From NCBI GenBank assembly GCA_003222675.1, contig QHWT01000057.1, positions 1-64,000 of the forward strand: a stretch of 64,000 nucleotides of DNA. The letters are read 5' to 3'. The notes under the pieces were generated by a model. That model did no database searches. It was not told the origin of the DNA and worked only from the letters and a program-made list of their open reading frames with translations. Every line of letters starts with the position of its first letter. Within the stretch, counting starts at the first letter, position 1. Source of the stretch: Acidobacteriota bacterium. Lineage in GTDB: Bacteria; Acidobacteriota; Vicinamibacteria; Vicinamibacterales; 2-12-FULL-66-21. The position numbers were made by a program, and so were the translations under genes. Below are positions 10,372 to 63,800 of the stretch, piece by piece.

Positions 10372-10384
10372 CGGGGGGATTCTC

Positions 10385-10475
10385 CCGCCTGAAGGCGGAA
10401 GCCACGAGTGAGGTATGTAGAAGGCCGGGTCTTCAGACCCGGCGTAATGCTGGCGGACCTGAAGGTCCGCCCTAC
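10385..10475. repeat. Cluster of three REP-like TGAA hairpins
   Basis: Three palindromes lie in the spacer between convergent genes. They are CCGCCTGAAGGCGG (10385-10398), GCCGGGTC-TTCA-GACCCGGC (10424-10443) and GGCGGACC-TGAA-GGTCCGCC (10452-10471). The last is followed by CTAC, which is GTAG on the minus strand. The stems differ between copies but remain perfectly complementary, while the TGAA/TTCA centre is fixed. The GTAG foot supplies the TAG stop codon (10472-10474) of the minus-strand CRTAC1 gene. The arrangement resembles enterobacterial REP elements, and the cluster may also act as a bidirectional terminator. Confidence 0.8.
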
Positions 10476-12142
10476 TTGGTGATCGTGACGATCTGATTCC
10501 CCTTCACGCGCTCCTGCTTCGTGGTCGTCCCATCGGGCCAGCGGACCTCGATGCTGTCCACAACCTCCGCTGATCCCAGGCCGAAGTGCTGGCGCATGTC
10601 GTTCTGTGAAATGTAGCTCGTGCCGCTCTGGATGAGCGCGCGTTGACGCACCGCGCCGGTGGTGACAGTGATCACTGCGCCGATCGCGTCGGTGTTCGGC
10701 GCGGCGCCTTTCAGTTTGACAATCACCCAGTTGCCGGCTGATGTGAGCTCGTTGTGCAGGACCTGCGGCCCGCCGTCGAGATCGTTGATGACGACATCGA
10801 CGCGCCCGTCGTTGTCGATGTCTCCCATGGCCAGGCCGCGGCTGACGCGTGGCTCGGTCAGCACCGGCCCAAACCTCGTCGAAACGTCTTCGAACGTGCC
10901 GTCGCCGCGGTTGCGATAGAGCAGCTTGCGCTGCCGGTAGCCCGCCGACACGCCCATCTTCACCTTATCGAGCTGCGGATACACGTGACCGTTGATGGCG
11001 ATGATATCCGCCCACGTGTCGTTGTCATAGTCGAGAAATGCATCGCCCCAGCCCACATAGGGAAGACTGCTCGCCGCGGTGCGCGAGCGGAACGACACGT
11101 CGGAAAAATGATCGCCGTCGTTATGGTAGAGCGCGTTGTATTCCTCGGCGAAGTTCGTCACGAAAAGGCTGAAGCGCCCGCTGTGATCGTAATCGCCGAG
11201 CGCGACGCCCATGCTGCCTTGTTCGGCGCCGTCCTCGCTGACGGCAACGCCGAGCGGAAACGCCTGCTCCTTGAACGTGCCGTTCTTCTGGTTCACGTAC
11301 ATGAAGTTCGGCGTCGAGTCGTTCGCCACATACAGGTCCGGCCACCCGTCGTCGTTGTAGTCGAACCACGCGATGCCAAGCCCGAAGTATCCGCGCGGAT
11401 CGGAAACCCCCGCTCTGTCCGACACGTCGGTGAAGCGGCCGTTCCCGTCATTGCGAAAGAGGAGATCGGATTCGCCCTGCAGGCCTCGCGGCCCGCACTG
11501 CACGGCGATGCCGCGGTACTCGCAGGTCTTGTCTTTGCCGAATTCCGGCAAGTGCGCGAGATCGATCTTCACGTAGCGGCTGACAAAGAGATCGAGATGG
11601 CCGTCGCGATCGTAGTCCGCGAAGCCGCAGCCGGCCGACCATCCACTCGCGCCGACGCCGGCGCGTTCCGTAACGTCTTCGAACGTGCCGTCGTGACGAT
11701 TGCGATAGAGATGATTGCCGCCAATCGCGGTGACGTAGACGTCTTCCCAGCCGTCGCCGTTCTCGTCGCCGGTGCAGACGCCCATGCCCCAGCCGGGATG
11801 CGCAAGGCCCGACTTCCCGGTGACGTCTTCGAACCGGCCGCTTCCCAGGTTGTGATAGAGCGCGCTCTGCGCGGCGTTCGAGTTGCCGGCTGTTTCGACG
11901 GTCAACGAATCGACGAAATAAATGTCGGGCAGCCCGTCGTTGTCGTAGTCGAACAGCGCGACGCCGCCGCTCATCGATTCGACGATGAACTTCTTTTCCG
12001 GAGCGGCGTGATGCTCGAACGTGATGCCGGCGTCCTTGGTGATGTCGCGAAAGAGGATCGCGGCGGGTGATGCGGGCTGCATCGCGCCCGCGGCGGTGAC
12101 GCACGTGACGGCGAGGAACAGCCCCGGAACCCTGATCGTCAC
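10472..12142 (-). CDS. CRTAC1-family FG-GAP/ASPIC-UnbV beta-propeller protein
   Basis: A 556-residue exported protein. A signal peptide (about 1-24) is followed by an FRDITKDAGITFEHH motif and at least six FG-GAP/VCBS-type repeats with calcium-binding D-x-D-x-DG loops (DYDNDGLPD, DYNDDGWPD, DIDNDGRVD). A C-terminal ASPIC/UnbV domain reads NTDAIGAVITVTTG...GTSYISQNDMRQHFGLG...IEVRWPDG. Such proteins are extracellular or periplasmic propellers of unknown biochemical role. It shares its architecture with the gene at 18400 and part of the one at 20091, so this neighbourhood holds three paralogous propellers. A TPR fragment lies directly upstream in the same direction. Confidence 0.9.
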   Translation of the reverse strand: MTIRVPGLFLAVTCVTAAGAMQPASPAAILFRDITKDAGITFEHHAAPEKKFIVESMSGGVALFDYDNDGLPDIYFVDSLTVETAGNSNAAQSALYHNLGSGRFEDVTGKSGLAHPGWGMGVCTGDENGDGWEDVYVTAIGGNHLYRNRHDGTFEDVTERAGVGASGWSAGCGFADYDRDGHLDLFVSRYVKIDLAHLPEFGKDKTCEYRGIAVQCGPRGLQGESDLLFRNDGNGRFTDVSDRAGVSDPRGYFGLGIAWFDYNDDGWPDLYVANDSTPNFMYVNQKNGTFKEQAFPLGVAVSEDGAEQGSMGVALGDYDHSGRFSLFVTNFAEEYNALYHNDGDHFSDVSFRSRTAASSLPYVGWGDAFLDYDNDTWADIIAINGHVYPQLDKVKMGVSAGYRQRKLLYRNRGDGTFEDVSTRFGPVLTEPRVSRGLAMGDIDNDGRVDVVINDLDGGPQVLHNELTSAGNWVIVKLKGAAPNTDAIGAVITVTTGAVRQRALIQSGTSYISQNDMRQHFGLGSAEVVDSIEVRWPDGTTTKQERVKGNQIVTITK

Positions 12143-30347: not shown

Positions 30348-31637
30348 TCATTTCGATCCGTTCATCGATCCGAGGAACTCGCTGTTGCTCTTCGTCTTGC
30401 CCATCTTGGACAGCAGCAGCTCCATGCCTTCCTGCGGCGAGAGCGGGTTGAGGACCTTGCGGAGCACCCACACGCGGTTCAGATCGTCCTTCGGGATGAG
30501 CAGCTCCTCCTTGCGGGTGCCGCTCTTCTGAATATCGATCGCCGGGAATACGCGGCGATCGGCGAGCTTGCGATCCAGGTGGATCTCGAGGTTGCCGGTG
30601 CCCTTGAACTCTTCGAAGATCACTTCGTCCATGCGCGATCCGGTGTCGATGAGCGCCGTCGCCATGATCGTCAGCGACCCTCCCTCTTCGATGTTCCGCG
30701 CCGCGCCGAAGAAGCGCTTCGGCCGCTGCAGCGCATTACTGTCGACGCCGCCCGACAGCACCTTGCCCGACGCGGGGACGATGGTGTTGTAGGCGCGCGC
30801 AAGGCGCGTGATGGAATCGAGCAGGATGACGACGTCCTTCTTGTGCTCGACGAGCCGCTTCGCTTTCTCGATCACCATCTCGGCCACCTGCACATGACGC
30901 TGGGCCGGTTCGTCGAACGTCGAGGAGATGACCTCGCCCTTGACGGACCGCTGCATGTCGGTGACTTCTTCCGGGCGCTCGTCGATGAGCAGCACGATCA
31001 GGTACACCTCGGGATGGTTCGCCGTAATGCTGTTCGCGATGTTCTGCAGCAGCATCGTCTTGCCCGTGCGCGGCGGCGCGACGATGAGGCCGCGCTGGCC
31101 CTTGCCGATTGGGACCATCAGGTCCATGACGCGCGCCGACAGGTTGTCGGACGCGGTCTCGAGCTTGAGCCGCTGCTGCGGATAGAGCGGCCGATCGGGC
31201 GGCTCGAAGTTGACGGCTTCCACCTTGATCAGCGCGAAATAGCGCTCGCCCTCTTTCGGCTGGCGGATCTGGCCGCTGACGGTGTCCCCCGTGTGCAGGT
31301 CGAACTTCCGGATCTGCGACGGCGACACGTAGATGTCGTCCGGACCGGGGAGGTAGTTGTAGCTCGGCGCGCGGAGGAAACCGAAGCCGTCCGGCAGCGT
31401 CTCGAGCACTCCCTCCGAGAACAGGTTGCCGCTCTTCTCGGCGCGCGACTTCAGGATCTCGAAAATGAGCTCCTGCTTGCGCATGCCCGTCGCACCCGGC
31501 ACGTCGAGGGTCTTGGCGACCTTCGTCAGCTCGGTGATGCTCATCTCCTTCAGCGTCGACAGCTCGACGTTGTTGGATTGGGGCGGCGCGGCCGCGGTCG
31601 CTACAGTTACCTGCTCAGTCTTGCTATCAGTGTCCAC
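30348..31637 (-). CDS. rho: Transcription termination factor Rho
   Basis: A 429-residue RNA-dependent ATPase. The N-terminal helical domain ([18 protein letters not shown]) and OB-fold RNA-binding region ([22 protein letters not shown]) precede the ATPase core, with P-loop [15 protein letters not shown], Walker [18 protein letters not shown] and Q-loop [12 protein letters not shown]. Length is typical of the family (about 420). The start overlaps the 3' end of engB by 31 bp. A terminator follows. Confidence 0.96.
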
Positions 31638-32266
31638 AGATCATCCAGTCCTTCGCCCTTCGCTGCCGAGATGGGCAGTGGGGCGGTTCCGAGTTGCCGT
31701 TCGAACGACTTGAGGTTCTTCGCGCGCTCGCTGCGCGACAGCTTGTCGATCTTGGTTGCGAGCACCGTCCGGTTGACGCCGAGCGTGTCCAGCCACGCGC
31801 CCGCCTCGAGATCCGCCTCGAGGCCGGGATGCCGGGAGTCCACCAGATGGAGCACGCCGGCAATGCGATGCGGCGTGTCTGTAGGCCGGGTCTTCAGACC
31901 CGGCTCAGAGGCGGGTCTGAAGACCCGCCCTCCAGAAGAAAAGTAGGACTCCGCGATGCGCGCGAGCTCCGCGACCGAAGCCTCGCCGCCGCGCGCGTAT
32001 CCGTATCCGGGTAGATCGGCCAGATACACGCGCCAGCGGCCCGGCCCGCCGGGTCCGCCGTCCGCGTGCAGGCGATACAGGTTCGCCAGCCGCGTCTTTC
32101 CTGGCGCCGCGCTGGTCCGCGCGAGCTTCATGCCCGTCAGCGCATTGATCAGCGAAGACTTCCCGACATTGGATCGTCCAACCAGTGCGATGTGCGGGAT
32201 GCCGTCTTGCGGCACACCGCGCGCGTCCACCGCGCTGGTGACGAAGTGGGCTTCTAAGAGCTTCAA
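31607..32266 (-). CDS. engB: Ribosome biogenesis GTP-binding protein EngB/YsxC with repeat insertion
   Basis: A 219-residue GTPase needed for large-subunit assembly in well-studied bacteria. G motifs are G1 [11 protein letters not shown]2 region SAAPGKTR, G3 DLPGYG, G4 TKIDK and G5 ISAAKG. Between G3 and G4, after the helix ending ESYF, about 25 extra residues ([19 protein letters not shown] then TDTPHR) are encoded by two inverted REP-like hairpins at 31881-31932. The normal core resumes at [13 protein letters not shown]. The frame is kept, so the protein is probably functional with a surface loop. It overlaps rho by 31 bp. Confidence 0.93.
31881..31932. repeat. REP-like inverted pair inside engB
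   Basis: GTAG (31881-31884) is followed directly by GCCGGGTC-TTCA-GACCCGGC (31885-31904), then TCAGA (31905-31909) and the inverted partner GGCGGGTC-TGAA-GACCCGCC (31910-31929), followed by CTCC. The two hairpins can also pair with each other. The first hairpin is identical to that at 10424-10443. The pair is translated in frame within engB. Confidence 0.85.
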
Positions 32267-47606: not shown

Positions 47607-47770
47607 GTAGGCCGGGTCATCAGACCCGGCGCGCCGTCGCCGCGGGTGGGTCTTTAGCTTGGAGACGCACGCGCGGGAGCGCGTGCGAAGCACAATCACC
47701 AGATTACCCAATCCAGAAATCACCAAATCCCGCAGGGCTGTCTTCTTCGTCAGCAGCCTGCTAAAGACCC
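47607..47770. repeat. REP-like hairpin and long-range inverted repeat
   Basis: GTAG (47607-47610) directly precedes GCCGGGTC-ATCA-GACCCGGC (47611-47630), with one loop base changed from the usual TTCA. GGGTCTTTAGC (47648-47658) has its inverse GCTAAAGACCC at 47760-47770, the latter overlapping the 3' end of the nuclease gene. Between them lie loose ATCACCAGAT/ATCACCAAAT words. Confidence 0.7.
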
Positions 47771-57408: not shown

Positions 57409-60400
57409 ATGGCGTCCGGGATGGAGCCACAGATGGTCCGCCTGTTCGAATCCTCTGCAACAGAACTCCGACTGGCCGAAGCGCGTGCTTTCGTCGACCG
57501 CGAGGCCCGGCGCGGCGACGTATTGATCGTTGCCGCTTCCCGCGGAGCCGCGGATGATCTCGCGCGTTCGATTGCCGTCACGCGTGGCGCCACGATCGGC
57601 CTGCACCGATTCAGCTTCACTCAGCTCGCCGCGCGGCTTGCCGCGCCGATCCTCGCCAACCAGCAACTGGCGCCCTCGACGTACCTTGCGACCGAGGCGG
57701 TCGCCGCGCGCGCGGCTTTTGATGCGCGCCGCGAACACGCGCTCGCGTACTTCGAGCCGGTCGCGGCCATGCCGGGGTTTGCGCGCGCGCTCGCGCGCAC
57801 GCTGCAGGAAGTCCGGCTCGCGCAGGTCGACGCCGATCGCCTGGCCTCTTTGCCGCTTGGCGGCCCGGATCTCTCGGAGTTGCTCGCGCGTTTCGACGAG
57901 CAGTTCGCGGCGGCGGCTGCAATCGATCGCGCCACGCTGTTCGACACCGCGACACGAGCGCTTCTTCCGGCTGAAGGCGGTAGCCACGGGAGCGGTGGAA
58001 GGAACCTTCAGCTGGGCGCCCCGTTGCTCCTGCTCGATGTCCCGCTTGACTCGCCCGTCGAGTTCGAATTCGTCCGTGCGTTGCTCCAGCCGCACCGTTC
58101 CGTGCTGATCACGGTGCCGTTCGGCGACATTGCGGCGTTGAAGCGCCTGCACTCGATTGGCCTCGAACCTGAGATTCTCGAACAGGAGGGAGACACCGAT
58201 CTCGTCGCGCTGCGCCGGAATCTATTCGCCACGCGCCAGCCGCCGATCCGCGGTGCGCGCGGCGACGTCACGTTCTTTTCGGCGCCCGGCGAAGGACGCG
58301 AGTGCGTCGAGATTGCGCGCCGCATCCTGCAGGAGTCCCGCGCCGGCGTGCCGTTCGATGAAATGGCGGTGTTCCTGCGCGCGCCGCAGCGATACGTCGG
58401 TCTGCTCGAGCACGCGCTCAATCGCGCGGGCGTTCCCGCGTGGTTCGATCGCGGCACCCGCCGTCCGCATCCCGCCGGCCGCGCGTTCCTCGCGGTCCTC
58501 GCGTGTGCGTGCGAACAGCTTTCCGCCCGGCGCTTCGCCGAATACCTGTCGCTCGCGCAGGTCCCATCCCTAGACGACAAGTCACGCGCGCCCGAGTTCG
58601 TGGCGCCGGACGATGAGGAGCTCACGCTGCCGGGGTCCGGGGTGCGGGACGCGGGATCCGACGAAGAGACGGAGGACGCGACCAGCGCCACCTCTTCTCT
58701 TCGTCCCGCATCCCGCGCCCCGGACCCCGATGAAGAAGCCATCGTCCACGGGACTCTTCGTGCCCCGTGGAAGTGGGAGACGTTGATCGTGGAGTCGGCG
58801 GTGATTGGTGGCGATCCGGCCCGGTGGCATCGTCGGCTGAGTGGGCTCGCGAAGGAGTTTCGCGTTCGCATTGCGGAGGAACGCAAGGAGGACCCCGAAT
58901 CGCCGAAGGCGGCACGACTCGAGCGCGACTGGCGCAACCTCGGTCACCTGCGCGCATTCGCGCTCCCGATCATCGATCAGCTCGCGTCATGGCCGGCGAG
59001 CGCGACGTGGGGAGAGTGGCTCGATCGGTTCGTCGTGCTCGCGCCGATGGTGCTCCGTCAGCCGGAACGCGTGCTGCGCGTAATCGAGCAGTTGCGCCCG
59101 ATGAGCGAGATCGGCCCAGTGCCGCTCGACGAGGCGCGCGATGTGATCGCCGGTCGGCTCTTGTCGATGGAAATCGATCCGCCCAAGAGCCGGTACGGCC
59201 GCGTGTTCGTCGGCAGCCCGCATCAGGCGCGAGGGCGCGCGTTCCGCGTCGTGTTTGTGGCCGGTCTCGCGGAGCGCATGTTCCCGCAGCGCCCGCGCGA
59301 AGATCCCATGCTCCTCGACAAGGAGATGCGCGAGCCGCTCGACGCCGGGTTGATCGTGCAGGAGGATCGCGGCCGCACCGAGCGGCTGTTGCTGCGATTG
59401 GCGGTGGGGGCGGCGACCGAACGGCTCTGGCTGTCGTATCCGCGGATCGAGATCGCGGAATCGCGCCCGCGCGTGCCGAGCTTCTATGCACTCGACGTGA
59501 TGCGCGCCGTCACCGGGCAGGTGCCGAAGCACGAAGCGCTGCAGGAGGACGCCGCCGTCGCCGGCGGAGCCGGACTGGCGTGGCCTGCACCCGACGCGCC
59601 ATCGGAGGCGATCGACGATCTCGAACACGACCTGTCTGTGTTGAAGCAGCTTCTCCAGGCCGAGCCGCGCGCGGCTGTCCGCGGGCGCGCGCATTACCTG
59701 CTGCGGCTCAACGACTCGCTCAAGCGATCGGTCACCGCGCGCTGGGCGCGTGGCCGATCGCTGTGGACGCCGTTCGACGGCATCACGCGCGTGACCGGCA
59801 TGACGAAGCCGATGCTCGAGGCGCAGCGGCTCGGCGTTCGGCCGTACTCGCTGTCGGCGCTGCAGAAATTTGCCGCATGCCCGTACCAGTTCCTCTTATC
59901 GGCTATCCATCGGCTCGAACCGACCGAAGAACCGGAGCCGCTGCAGAAGCTGGATCCGCTGACGCGCGGATCGATCTTCCACGAGGCGCAGGCGACCTTC
60001 TTCCGTGCATTGAAGGAACAGAAGCGCCTGCCGGTGGCGGAGGAGGATGTGCCGCACGCGCTGGCAACGCTCGACGCGGTGATCGCCGCGGTTTCCGCGA
60101 AGTACCACGAGGACCTCGCGCCGGCAATCGAGCGCGTCTGGCAAGACGAGATCGGAGACATCGCGCGCGATCTGCGCGTCTGGGCGCGGCGGCTGCCGCA
60201 GCTTGCGGGCTGGGAGCCTCGGCATTTCGAGTTTGCCTTTGGTCTCTCGGACGAAGGCCGCGATCCCGACAGCCTGCCGGATCCCGTGCTGGTCGACGGA
60301 CGTTTCAAGCTGCGCGGGTCGATTGATCTGATCGAGCGCAAGCACGGCAGCGAGACGCTGCGCGTCACCGACCACAAAACGGGAAAGAACCGGACGACCT

Positions 60401-60753
60401 GGAAGACGGTGATCGGCGGCGGCGCGATCCTGCAGCCGGTGCTTTACAGCCTCGCGATCGAGCAGGCGCTGCAGGTCAAAGTCGAGTCGGGCCGCCTGTT
60501 CTACTGCACATCGGCCGGCGGTTTCGTCGATCACGAGATCCCGATCAGCGAGGCGAACCGCCGCATCGGCCTCGAGGCCCTCGAGATCATCGATCGCGCG
60601 ATCGAGCTCGGCTTCCTGCCCGCCGCCCCCGCGGAACGCGCGTGCACGTGGTGCGACTTCCGTCCGGTCTGCGGGCCCGGTGAACCGCGACGTGTCGCGA
60701 ACAAGCCGGCGGAGAAACTTGGTGACCTCGAGGCGCTTCGCGAGCGTCCGTAG
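57409..60753 (+). CDS. addB: AddB-like helicase/nuclease subunit with 4Fe-4S nuclease domain
   Basis: A 1114-residue protein. The N-terminal half is an inactivated helicase-like fold (DVLIVAASRGAADDLARSIA in place of a Walker A). The C-terminal PD-(D/E)XK nuclease (about 815-1100) has D973 (GSIDLIE), D988 and K990 (TDHKTGK). The four cysteines of the AddB/RecB-type iron-sulfur staple are C824 (AACPYQF), C1079, C1082 and C1088. It pairs with the AddA-like gene downstream to process double-strand breaks. Two heptamer arrays (58632-58659, 58703-58729) encode a linker of low complexity (about 408-441), and a TGAA hairpin lies at 57967-57980. ATGs at 57421 and 57433 are alternative starts. Confidence 0.88.
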   Translation: MASGMEPQMVRLFESSATELRLAEARAFVDREARRGDVLIVAASRGAADDLARSIAVTRGATIGLHRFSFTQLAARLAAPILANQQLAPSTYLATEAVAARAAFDARREHALAYFEPVAAMPGFARALARTLQEVRLAQVDADRLASLPLGGPDLSELLARFDEQFAAAAAIDRATLFDTATRALLPAEGGSHGSGGRNLQLGAPLLLLDVPLDSPVEFEFVRALLQPHRSVLITVPFGDIAALKRLHSIGLEPEILEQEGDTDLVALRRNLFATRQPPIRGARGDVTFFSAPGEGRECVEIARRILQESRAGVPFDEMAVFLRAPQRYVGLLEHALNRAGVPAWFDRGTRRPHPAGRAFLAVLACACEQLSARRFAEYLSLAQVPSLDDKSRAPEFVAPDDEELTLPGSGVRDAGSDEETEDATSATSSLRPASRAPDPDEEAIVHGTLRAPWKWETLIVESAVIGGDPARWHRRLSGLAKEFRVRIAEERKEDPESPKAARLERDWRNLGHLRAFALPIIDQLASWPASATWGEWLDRFVVLAPMVLRQPERVLRVIEQLRPMSEIGPVPLDEARDVIAGRLLSMEIDPPKSRYGRVFVGSPHQARGRAFRVVFVAGLAERMFPQRPREDPMLLDKEMREPLDAGLIVQEDRGRTERLLLRLAVGAATERLWLSYPRIEIAESRPRVPSFYALDVMRAVTGQVPKHEALQEDAAVAGGAGLAWPAPDAPSEAIDDLEHDLSVLKQLLQAEPRAAVRGRAHYLLRLNDSLKRSVTARWARGRSLWTPFDGITRVTGMTKPMLEAQRLGVRPYSLSALQKFAACPYQFLLSAIHRLEPTEEPEPLQKLDPLTRGSIFHEAQATFFRALKEQKRLPVAEEDVPHALATLDAVIAAVSAKYHEDLAPAIERVWQDEIGDIARDLRVWARRLPQLAGWEPRHFEFAFGLSDEGRDPDSLPDPVLVDGRFKLRGSIDLIERKHGSETLRVTDHKTGKNRTTWKTVIGGGAILQPVLYSLAIEQALQVKVESGRLFYCTSAGGFVDHEIPISEANRRIGLEALEIIDRAIELGFLPAAPAERACTWCDFRPVCGPGEPRRVANKPAEKLGDLEALRERP
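58632..58729. repeat. Opposed heptamer arrays inside addB
   Basis: GGGGTCC, GGGGTGC, GGGACGC, GGGATCC (58632-58659) and the complementary-style GTCCCGC, ATCCCGC, GCCCCGG (58703-58729). They encode a Gly/Asp/Ser and Pro/Arg linker and share words with the addA array at 62793-62822. Confidence 0.85.
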
Positions 60754-60811: not shown

Positions 60812-63800
60812 ATGAGCCCGAAGCCCGATCAAGCAGCCCGCGAGGCTATTGCCAACGCGCTCGACGACACGCTCGTCGTCGAGGCTGCGGCAGGCACCGG
60901 CAAGACGACCGAACTCGTGAAGCGCATCGTGCGCATCCTTGCCGATGGCAAGACGAAGGTGCAGAACATCGTCGCGGTCACCTTCACCGAGAAGGCTGCG
61001 GGAGAATTGAAGCTGCGTCTGCGCGAAGCGCTCGACGAGGCGAGACAGCGGGCGGGCTCGTCGGAGACGCTCAATGCCGCGCTCGCGGGGCTCGAAGAAG
61101 CGCACGTCAGCACCATTCATGGCTTCTGCGCGGAGCTGCTGCGGGAGCGTCCGGTCGAAGCCCGCGTCGATCCGTTGTTTGCCGTGCTGACGGAGCCGCA
61201 GGCCGAGCGTCTCTTCGACGAAGCGTTCGGCGGCTGGGTGCAGCTCAAATTGCAGGATCCGCCCCAAGGCATCCGGCGCGCGCTGCGCCGGTCGGTGTGG
61301 CAGGGATTCGGCGCGACGCCGCGACAGGAGACGGCGATCGATCGCCTTCGGCGCGCCGCGTGGGAGCTCGCCCAGTGGCGCGACTTCAATGGTGTATGGA
61401 GCCGGCGCGTGTTCGATCGCGAAGGGGATATCGATCGTCTCGTTGACGAGCTTCATGCCTTCGCGGCGCTCAGCGACAAGCCGTCATACGCGAAGGACCC
61501 GCTGTTCGTCGACACTGCTCCCGCGCGTCATCTAAGCGCGGAGATTGCGCTGCAGCAGGAGTCCCGCCTGAAGGCGGAAGAAACCACCGATTACGACGGC
61601 TGGGAAGCGCGCCTCGTCGATCTCTCACGAGATCGCAACTTCTCAAAGGCGCGTCATGGCCGCGGCCCCGGATACAAACAGGGGACTACGCGTGCGCGCG
61701 TCGTCGAGGCGCTCGATGCGCTACGCGTGAGCCTCGAACAGTTCCGCCTCAACGCGGACGCCGATCTCGCGGCGGCGCTTCAGCGCGAACTGTGGGGCGC
61801 GATTGATCGGTACGAGCAGCTGAAGGCGCGCGCGGGTGCGCTCGACTTTCTCGATCTGCTGCTGAAGGCGCGCGACCTCGTGAAAGGAAACGCAGGCGTG
61901 CGCCTCGGATTTCAGCAACGGTTCACGCACATCTTCGTCGACGAGTTTCAGGATACGGATCCGCTGCAGGCGGAGATCCTCCTGCTGCTCGCTGCCGAGG
62001 ACTCCGCCGCGACCGACTGGCGCACGGTGACGCCCGTGCCGGGTCGTCTGTTCATCGTCGGGGATCCCAAGCAGTCGATCTATCGGTTCCGCCGCGCCGA
62101 CGTGGGTATTTACCGCGACGTGTGCAAACGGCTCGAGGACTGCGGCGCGACGCTTCTCGAGCTCACCACGAGCTTCCGGAGCGTGCCGCAGATTCAGGCG
62201 TTCGTGAACGCGGCATTCGCACCGGTGATGACGGGCGACGCTGCGACGCTACAGGCCCACTATGTGCCGCTGTCGTCGCATCGTGGCGATTTGAAAGGGC
62301 GGCCCGCCGTCATCGCGTTGCCGGTTCCCGAGCCGTATGGCCCGCGCAGTGTGTCTGCGATGTCGATCGAGACATCGCTGCCCGATGCCGTCGGCGCATT
62401 CATCGACTGGGCCGTCAACGAGAGCGGGTGGAACGTCCGGAGCCGCGACATCTGCATCCTCTTCCGGCGGTTCGTCAGCTTCGGCGTCGACATTACCGAG
62501 CTGTACGCGCGCGCGCTCGAGGCGCGTGGCGTTCGTCACGTGCTCGTCGGCGGCAAGAGCTTCCACGATCGCGAGGAAGTGGAGACGATCCGCGCGGCGC
62601 TCGCCGCGATCGAGTGGCCGGACGATGAGCTGTCGGTGTTTGCGACGCTCCGCGGAGCGCTGTTCGCGATCGGCGATGAGGAGCTCCTCGAGTGGAAGCA
62701 GCGGTTCGGCGCGTTCCATCCGTTCCGCATTCCGGAGATGTTCCAGTCGGGACGCGGGTGGCGGGAGGCGCGGCGCGCTGGTTCGGAACCCCCGGATCCC
62801 GCACCCCGCACCCCGGATCCCGGCGACGCACGGCACTTGATTCCTATCGTCGATGCGCTGACCTTCCTTCAGCGTCTTCATCGGCGGCGCAATTACATTC
62901 CCGTCGCGGAGACGCTTCAGCAGCTGCTCGATGCGACGCGCGCGCACGTCGGACTGGTGCTGCGGAGCGCGGGAGAGCAGGCGCTAGCGAACGTGCTGCA
63001 CGTTGCGGAGCTTGCGCGTCAGTACGAAGTCGCAGGCGGATTGTCGTTCCGTGGATTCGTCGACGAGCTGCGCCTTGCGGCCGAGACTGCCCAGGCCGCT
63101 GAAGCGCCGATCCTGGAAGAGGGAAGCGACGGCGTTCGGATGATGACTGTGCACAAGGCGAAGGGGCTCGAGTTCCCGGTCGTCATCCTCGCGGACCTCA
63201 CGTGCAAGCTCGCGCGCGCAGAGGCTGGACGTTGGCTCGATCCCGGAGCGAATGTGTGCGCGCTCAAGCTCGGTGGCTGGGCGCCCATCGATCTCCTGCT
63301 GCACGATGCCGAGGAAGCCGCGCGCGACAGAGCGGAAGGCGAGCGCCTCGCGTACGTCGCGGCGACACGCGCGCGTGACGTGCTCGTCGTGCCCGCCATT
63401 GGCGACGGACCATATGAAGGCGGTTGGCTGGACCCACTGATGACCGCGATTTATCCTCCGGAATCGCAACGCCGCAGCCCATCGCGGTCGGCCGGAGGCC
63501 CCGAGTTCAGATCGAAGGACACGGTGCTGAAGCGGCCCGAGGGCGATCCCGCATCGGTCCGGACTGTCGCGCCAGGCACGTTCGTATTCGACGTGCCGGC
63601 CCTCGGCCCTCGGCCCTCGAACCGCGGCACGTATCACGTGACGTGGTGGGACCCGCACGCGCTGCACCTCGGCGCGGATTCCTCGTTCGGTCTGCGGCGG
63701 GACGATCTGATCGTGAAAGACGGCGACATGTTCGCCGTCGAGGAACGGCTCGCGGAGTACGAGCGGTGGCGCGACGGGCGCGCCGCCGTGATCGCGCAAG

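Follow-up and report, generated by a model that had tools for sequence, protein, structure and literature searches.

A GTAG-type REP population is present in Acidobacteriota of the class Vicinamibacteria, with RAYT partners in relatives. Three of its members stand side by side at 10382-10475 of the window (the whole 64,000-nt stretch of DNA that was analysed); the window is part of contig 25, in a genome of 7.16 Mb that is 99.9% complete. The preferred reading, held with a probability of roughly 0.9, is that these hairpins are REPs of the GTAG superfamily: non-autonomous elements of ∼24 nt, copied in trans by RAYT (TnpAREP), a single-domain HUH/Y1 transposase. The observations that lead to it are a foot-stem-cap anatomy, hundreds of dispersed copies, the formation of dimers, the placement of the copies and REP-flanked RAYT genes in relatives; the mechanism of copying would follow from these together with published biochemistry. 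A whole bacterial class is thereby added to a system known mostly from Proteobacteria.

Anatomy and abundance of the hairpins

The REP is a directional element: an 8-bp stem stands on a foot of GTAG or GTGG and is closed by a TTYA cap, which reads TGAA/TAAA on the opposite strand. The cap is organised as T-TY-A, in which a T-A pair is added to the 8-bp stem and TY forms the loop. The TGAA and TTCA versions are one directional element in two orientations. The copies in the window, and the gene that houses a pair of them, are:

10382-10405, minus strand: REP type E (CTTCCGCC), GTGG-CTTCCGCC-TTCA-GGCGGGAG, 8 pairs including one G-T, foot GTGG
10420-10443, plus strand: REP type A (GCCGGGTC), GAAG-GCCGGGTC-TTCA-GACCCGGC, perfect 8-bp stem, degenerate foot GAAG
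10452-10475, minus strand: REP type B (GGCGGACC), GTAG-GGCGGACC-TTCA-GGTCCGCC, perfect stem, foot GTAG
31607-32266, minus strand: engB/ysxC-like GTPase gene; a length-variable loop of it carries the REP dimer 31881-31933 in frame
31881-31904, plus strand: REP type A, perfect stem; left half of a head-to-head dimer within the engB/ysxC frame
31910-31933, minus strand: REP type C (GGCGGGTC), perfect stem, foot GGAG; right half of the dimer with 31881-31904
47607-47630, plus strand: REP type A, perfect stem, foot GTAG, cap ATCA
57964-57987, minus strand: degenerate type-E REP, foot GTGG; within an AddB/PD-(D/E)XK-like gene at 57409-60753
61561-61584, minus strand: degenerate type-E (CTTCCGCC) REP remnant, 6 of 8 pairs, foot lost

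An earlier sequence-only reading of this DNA had reported three hairpins with a common TGAA/TTCA centre, and all three are found at 10382-10475. The stem of the first hairpin, 10382-10405, given there as CCGCC/GGCGG, is longer (8 pairs) and stands on a GTGG foot. At 10420-10443, GTAG is present at 10417-10420, 3 nt outward of the degenerate foot. The TAG in the GTAG foot of 10452-10475 is also the stop codon of an open reading frame for an ASPIC/UnbV and FG-GAP protein (10472-12142). Further copies had been placed at 31885, 31910, 47611, 57967 and 61564, following the same rule or nearly so. This is borne out: the stems at 31881 and 31910 are perfect, 47607-47630 has a perfect stem but an ATCA cap, and the last two are degenerate copies.

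Copies were counted by pattern searches of the whole genome, and hairpins in a 1.60-Mb set of genome stretches. The main type, GTAGGSCGGRYCTTYAGRYCCGSC, has 124 exact copies in the whole genome and the second type, GTRGCTTCCGCCTTYAGGCGGAAG, has 55, against 0 for the reversed pattern in both cases. Chance inverted repeats in GC-rich DNA would supply some 5-bp stems in a window of 65% GC, but such counts against empty controls leave this origin a negligible probability. The 1.60 Mb contain 101 TTYA-capped stems of 8 bp or longer (TTCA 68, TTTA 33; foot strand, 4-nt caps); the next commonest cap that is neither TTYA nor its complement reaches 10, and in a Markov control TTYA does not rank among the top caps.

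In 84 of these 101 perfect TTYA hairpins a foot stands exactly before the 8-bp stem (GTAG 57, GTGG 27), and it is split by stem type: GTAG goes with GCCGGGTC, GGCGGACC and GGCGGGTC, and GTGG with CTTCCGCC, CTTCCGGC and CTTCCACC. GTGG copies tend to have TCYC upstream of the foot, and GTAG copies show an excess of CT there. CGTC, the tag of the CGTC REP superfamily, does not figure among the most frequent feet of TTYA hairpins in the 1.60 Mb. The population thus has what defines the GTAG superfamily: a GTRG tag, a 6-9 bp stem with a short loop, many dispersed and mostly intergenic copies, and dimers.

Stem covariation, placement and dimers

Covariation was assessed at 183 places that depart from one of four consensus sequences by at most 4 differences. 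At 26 pair positions both sides have changed (24 of these are Watson-Crick), where independent arms would give 3.4, and one-sided stem changes number 75 (21 G-T, 54 broken). Because the hits were chosen by similarity to palindromic consensus sequences, and much of the covariation is common descent within sub-families, the paired changes support a paired stem and are not a count of independent events. Stem diversity reflects mainly discrete sub-families, with paired changes above the independent expectation on top. The sequence-only reading had proposed selection for a hairpin and not for a sequence; since cap and foot are kept as sequence, selection is not for a hairpin alone.

Placement was derived from home-made gene calls and a tolerant scan that gave 150 copies. 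Between called genes lie 122 of the 150 copies, and 26 lie within them. Convergent spacers hold ∼2.1 copies per kb (45 in 21.7 kb), unidirectional spacers ∼0.54 per kb (67 in 124 kb) and divergent spacers ∼0.20 per kb (10 in 49 kb): the copies avoid promoter-side spacers.

This strong bias toward convergent and downstream spacers could also mean that what chiefly maintains the hairpins is a role at gene ends, in RNA or in DNA, as terminator, mRNA 3' stabiliser or protein-binding site, with mobility incidental; GC-rich stems of 8-9 bp and paired changes above expectation would fit such a role. It is nevertheless an unlikely explanation. The downstream flanks have no T-run of a Rho-independent terminator (the opposite strand there reads CTAC or CCAC), and it is the 5' side that bears the conserved foot. 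Occurrence across the class is extremely patchy, with the main type in 4 of 100 genomes and the CTTCCGCC type in 7 of 192, unlike a needed function. Some copies are within coding sequence, RAYT genes carry the same REP architecture around them, and a gene-end bias is also expected if insertions elsewhere are purged.

The dimer in the engB/ysxC-like gene (TIGR03598 match, 145.5 bits) coincides with a gap in the alignment to B. subtilis YsxC. The family's loop at this site is variable in length and content, and the extra residues are missing in two relatives; other insertions occur in this loop in relatives, one with a repeated SGLGAR-like stretch. In-gene copies are known for GTAG REPs from the text of PMC3733652, and the engB/ysxC dimer and the copy in the AddB-like gene are similar.

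Two-copy clusters (n=37) are tail-to-tail in 22 cases and head-to-head in 15. Tail-to-tail A-B pairs recur, with a spacer of 13-14 nt whose sequence is only partly alike and with outer flanks like CTCAKGRC/GTCATGAG. In orthologous spacers (loci L085 and L058), REPs are present in Bin1.33 (JABFWM), an assembly of the same genus, and absent from the window's genome; the two genomes share only ∼76-80% DNA identity, and the junctions of these empty-site comparisons are for that reason not clean.

RAYT genes in relatives and Y1 genes of the window's genome

Bin1.33 has 169 matches of the wider REP pattern and a RAYT gene on contig JABFWM010000669.1 (2-496), with the gene start at the contig edge. 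Beside it, at 489-608, are four REPs of types A and C, which is the REP type of the window. The protein scores 115.1 bits against NF047646 (REP-associated tyrosine transposase; cut-off 80), has HVH and YIVSNP motifs and matches E. coli TnpAREP (4er8) with E 1.4e-4. Its LWQegyyEHvlRD segment keeps W, Q, E, H and R (W-Q...E-H..R), the guide-contacting positions in PMC6006769. Set against the subclass 2.5/group 3 signature (DH[LF]H, WQ, YI[VI]ANP, D for E100), the motifs read DHVH, WQ and YIVSNP, with E in locus L106 and D in locus L107.

A three-sequence RAYT profile was searched against 193 genomes of the class (E 1e-15 or better), and RAYT-like Y1 genes were found in 60 of them. At least two GTRG hairpins with the same stem are nearby at 19 of the 30 RAYT loci examined, against 11 of 300 random segments taken from the window's own REP-rich genome. 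At most loci the upstream copies are oriented one way and the downstream copies the opposite way, with feet outward. Stems vary between loci (GTCCGGC, GTCCGCC, GCAGCCC, GGCCGGC, GGCAACCC, CGGCGGGG, CGCGACCC and GCCGGGTC among them) and the TTYA cap is nearly constant: TTCA (46) and TTTA (44) make up about three quarters of ∼120 hairpins. Dozens of RAYT genes in the class are thus framed by stems particular to each gene, with one cap in common. The association of GTAG-foot REPs with RAYT put forward by the sequence-only reading is well supported by these loci and by the Bin1.33 gene, and the RAYT genes of relatives presumably encode the movers of the REPs. The REPtron arrangement, a RAYT flanked by its own REPs, is found in Bin1.33 and at the 19 loci, and not in the window's genome.

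Two side observations concern these loci. TTTC-like loops occur in only two genomes of one genus. At L201 and L203, RAYT loci of one genus, the stem is GSCGGGTCC, which resembles those of the window but bears TTTC/TTTT loops in place of T-TY-A. Where the RAYT frame of locus L108 (= L186) begins, it is overlapped by GTCCGGC-TTYA REPs, and these code for repeats of the peptide VVSGFSRTR.

The search for a Y1 transposase suggested by the sequence-only reading gave a divided answer in the window's own genome. Two Y1 transposase genes are present, on contigs C9 (locus L021) and C50 (locus L022), both among other repeats, and the three-sequence profile finds no cognate RAYT at E 1e-15 or better. As the only Y1 genes in the genome, and with matches to the REP-associated transposase model (below its cut-off), they might be thought to move the TTYA REPs despite the other repeats that flank them. 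This is very improbable. No TTYA hairpin occurs within 1.5 kb of either gene; the flanks contain AGTGTGA-type and GGGGTCAGACCCC repeats, and the guide residues E-H..R are missing from both proteins. GGGGTCAGACCCC is a population of its own, with 25 copies in 1.6 Mb, and fits the GGGGWSAS TIR motif given for TIRYTs (TIR-associated tyrosine transposases) in the text of PMC3733652. Since both resident genes are flanked by unrelated repeats they are probably not REP movers, and they were set aside. A further dispersed repeat family of these two loci, GTGTGAGTGTC, has 18 copies per 1.6 Mb.

The REPs therefore look orphaned in the window's genome: with a cognate RAYT absent from the assembly, the copies are probably inherited and now passive, or the RAYT lies in unassembled DNA. 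REP arrays round RAYT genes may break short-read assemblies, as the Bin1.33 gene starting at a contig edge suggests. The enzyme may also have been lost from REP-bearing genomes, as has been reported for E. coli strains.

The CTTCCGCC type stands apart. It has 110 copies in genome G106 and 90 in G139, and in neither genome is a Y1 gene found, so that for this type a RAYT link is no more than putative; G138 has one copy and one Y1 gene. In Bin1.33 (G112) its foot is GTAG in 8 of 9 copies at the examined loci and in 20 of 20 among the matches listed, whereas GTGG is found in nearly all matches listed of the window's genome, G106 and G139. The sole REP-flanked RAYT of Bin1.33 sits among GTAG REPs. 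Tentatively, and with the odds rather against it, a natural switch of foot (guide) may have occurred, in which the CTTCCGCC lineage was re-targeted or captured by a different RAYT, with populations outlasting the enzyme. The GTAG/GTGG difference among relatives is a natural test of guide-directed target choice.

A model of copying and its relation to known systems

In the preferred reading, RAYT would bind the foot-bearing strand as folded single-stranded DNA, recognising a T-T-(N)-A cap together with a paired stem. GTRG, acting as guide, would select the cleavage dinucleotide, and strand transfer would then spread single copies and inverted pairs. Surviving copies would mostly be those in the least harmful position, downstream of genes. 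Stems could drift to new paired sequences with cap and foot fixed, because most of the stem would be read mainly as structure.

The biochemistry comes from the TnpAREP of Marinomonas Mb. Within its TTTA loop, in vitro selection (SELEX) favoured T12, T13 and A15, with no constraint at position 14. Cleavage was lost with T13C and reduced by a stem mismatch; replacing the whole stem by its complement had only a moderate effect, and an altered foot led to an altered cleavage dinucleotide (PMC8266576). If extended to the Vicinamibacteria enzymes, these rules would predict the genome pattern seen here: T-T-Y-A fixed, the stem free but paired, and the foot GTRG. Natural variation independently reproduces the SELEX result (T-T-N-A cap, free stem), and the substrate recognition rules of RAYTs become testable by comparing pairs of enzyme and REP.

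Mb is a REPtron of Marinomonas sp. MWYL1 from group 3 of TnpAREP/REP (PMC8266576), and the REPs here share its short perfect stem, its TTTA loop and the foot as guide; the T, T and A that it required, with a free third position, correspond to the TTYA cap. Differences lie in the third cap position, which here is nearly always a pyrimidine, in the stems and in the host; what is known of the system here comes from sequence. The E. coli TnpAREP (PDB 4er8) belongs to the same RAYT family and shows W-Q...E-H..R, the motif in contact with GTAG; its REPs, unlike those here with their short perfect stems, have a greater length and require a bulge.

The suggestion of a new REP class in Acidobacteriota is upheld in part. 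A literature search found no REP/RAYT report for Vicinamibacteria, and no earlier description in this lineage; RepRanger (PMC12306157) gives palindrome counts for three other Acidobacteriota, in a text without RAYT analysis. The architecture, however, is that of the known GTAG superfamily, as far as the text of Di Nocera et al. 2013 (PMC3733652) describes it: a terminal GTAG/GTRG tag, perfect stems of 6-9 bp in sub-families that differ by alternative residue pairs, very short loops that in many cases fit TY (here T-TY-A), head-to-head and tail-to-tail dimers, a convergent/unidirectional bias, RAYT association, and in-gene copies encoding 20-30 amino acids. Compared through that text, the REPs here may match one of its 24 families. 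They differ from its account in host lineage, as the text has only TIR-flanked transposases for Acidobacteriota, and in a foot that, inside a single genome, is GTAG or GTGG according to the type of stem.

REPINs/BIMEs of Pseudomonas and Escherichia are likewise inverted REP pairs. The recurrent pair here is A-B tail-to-tail with a ∼14-nt spacer, recognised from its arrangement in the sequence alone, and about half of the copies are outside such pairs.
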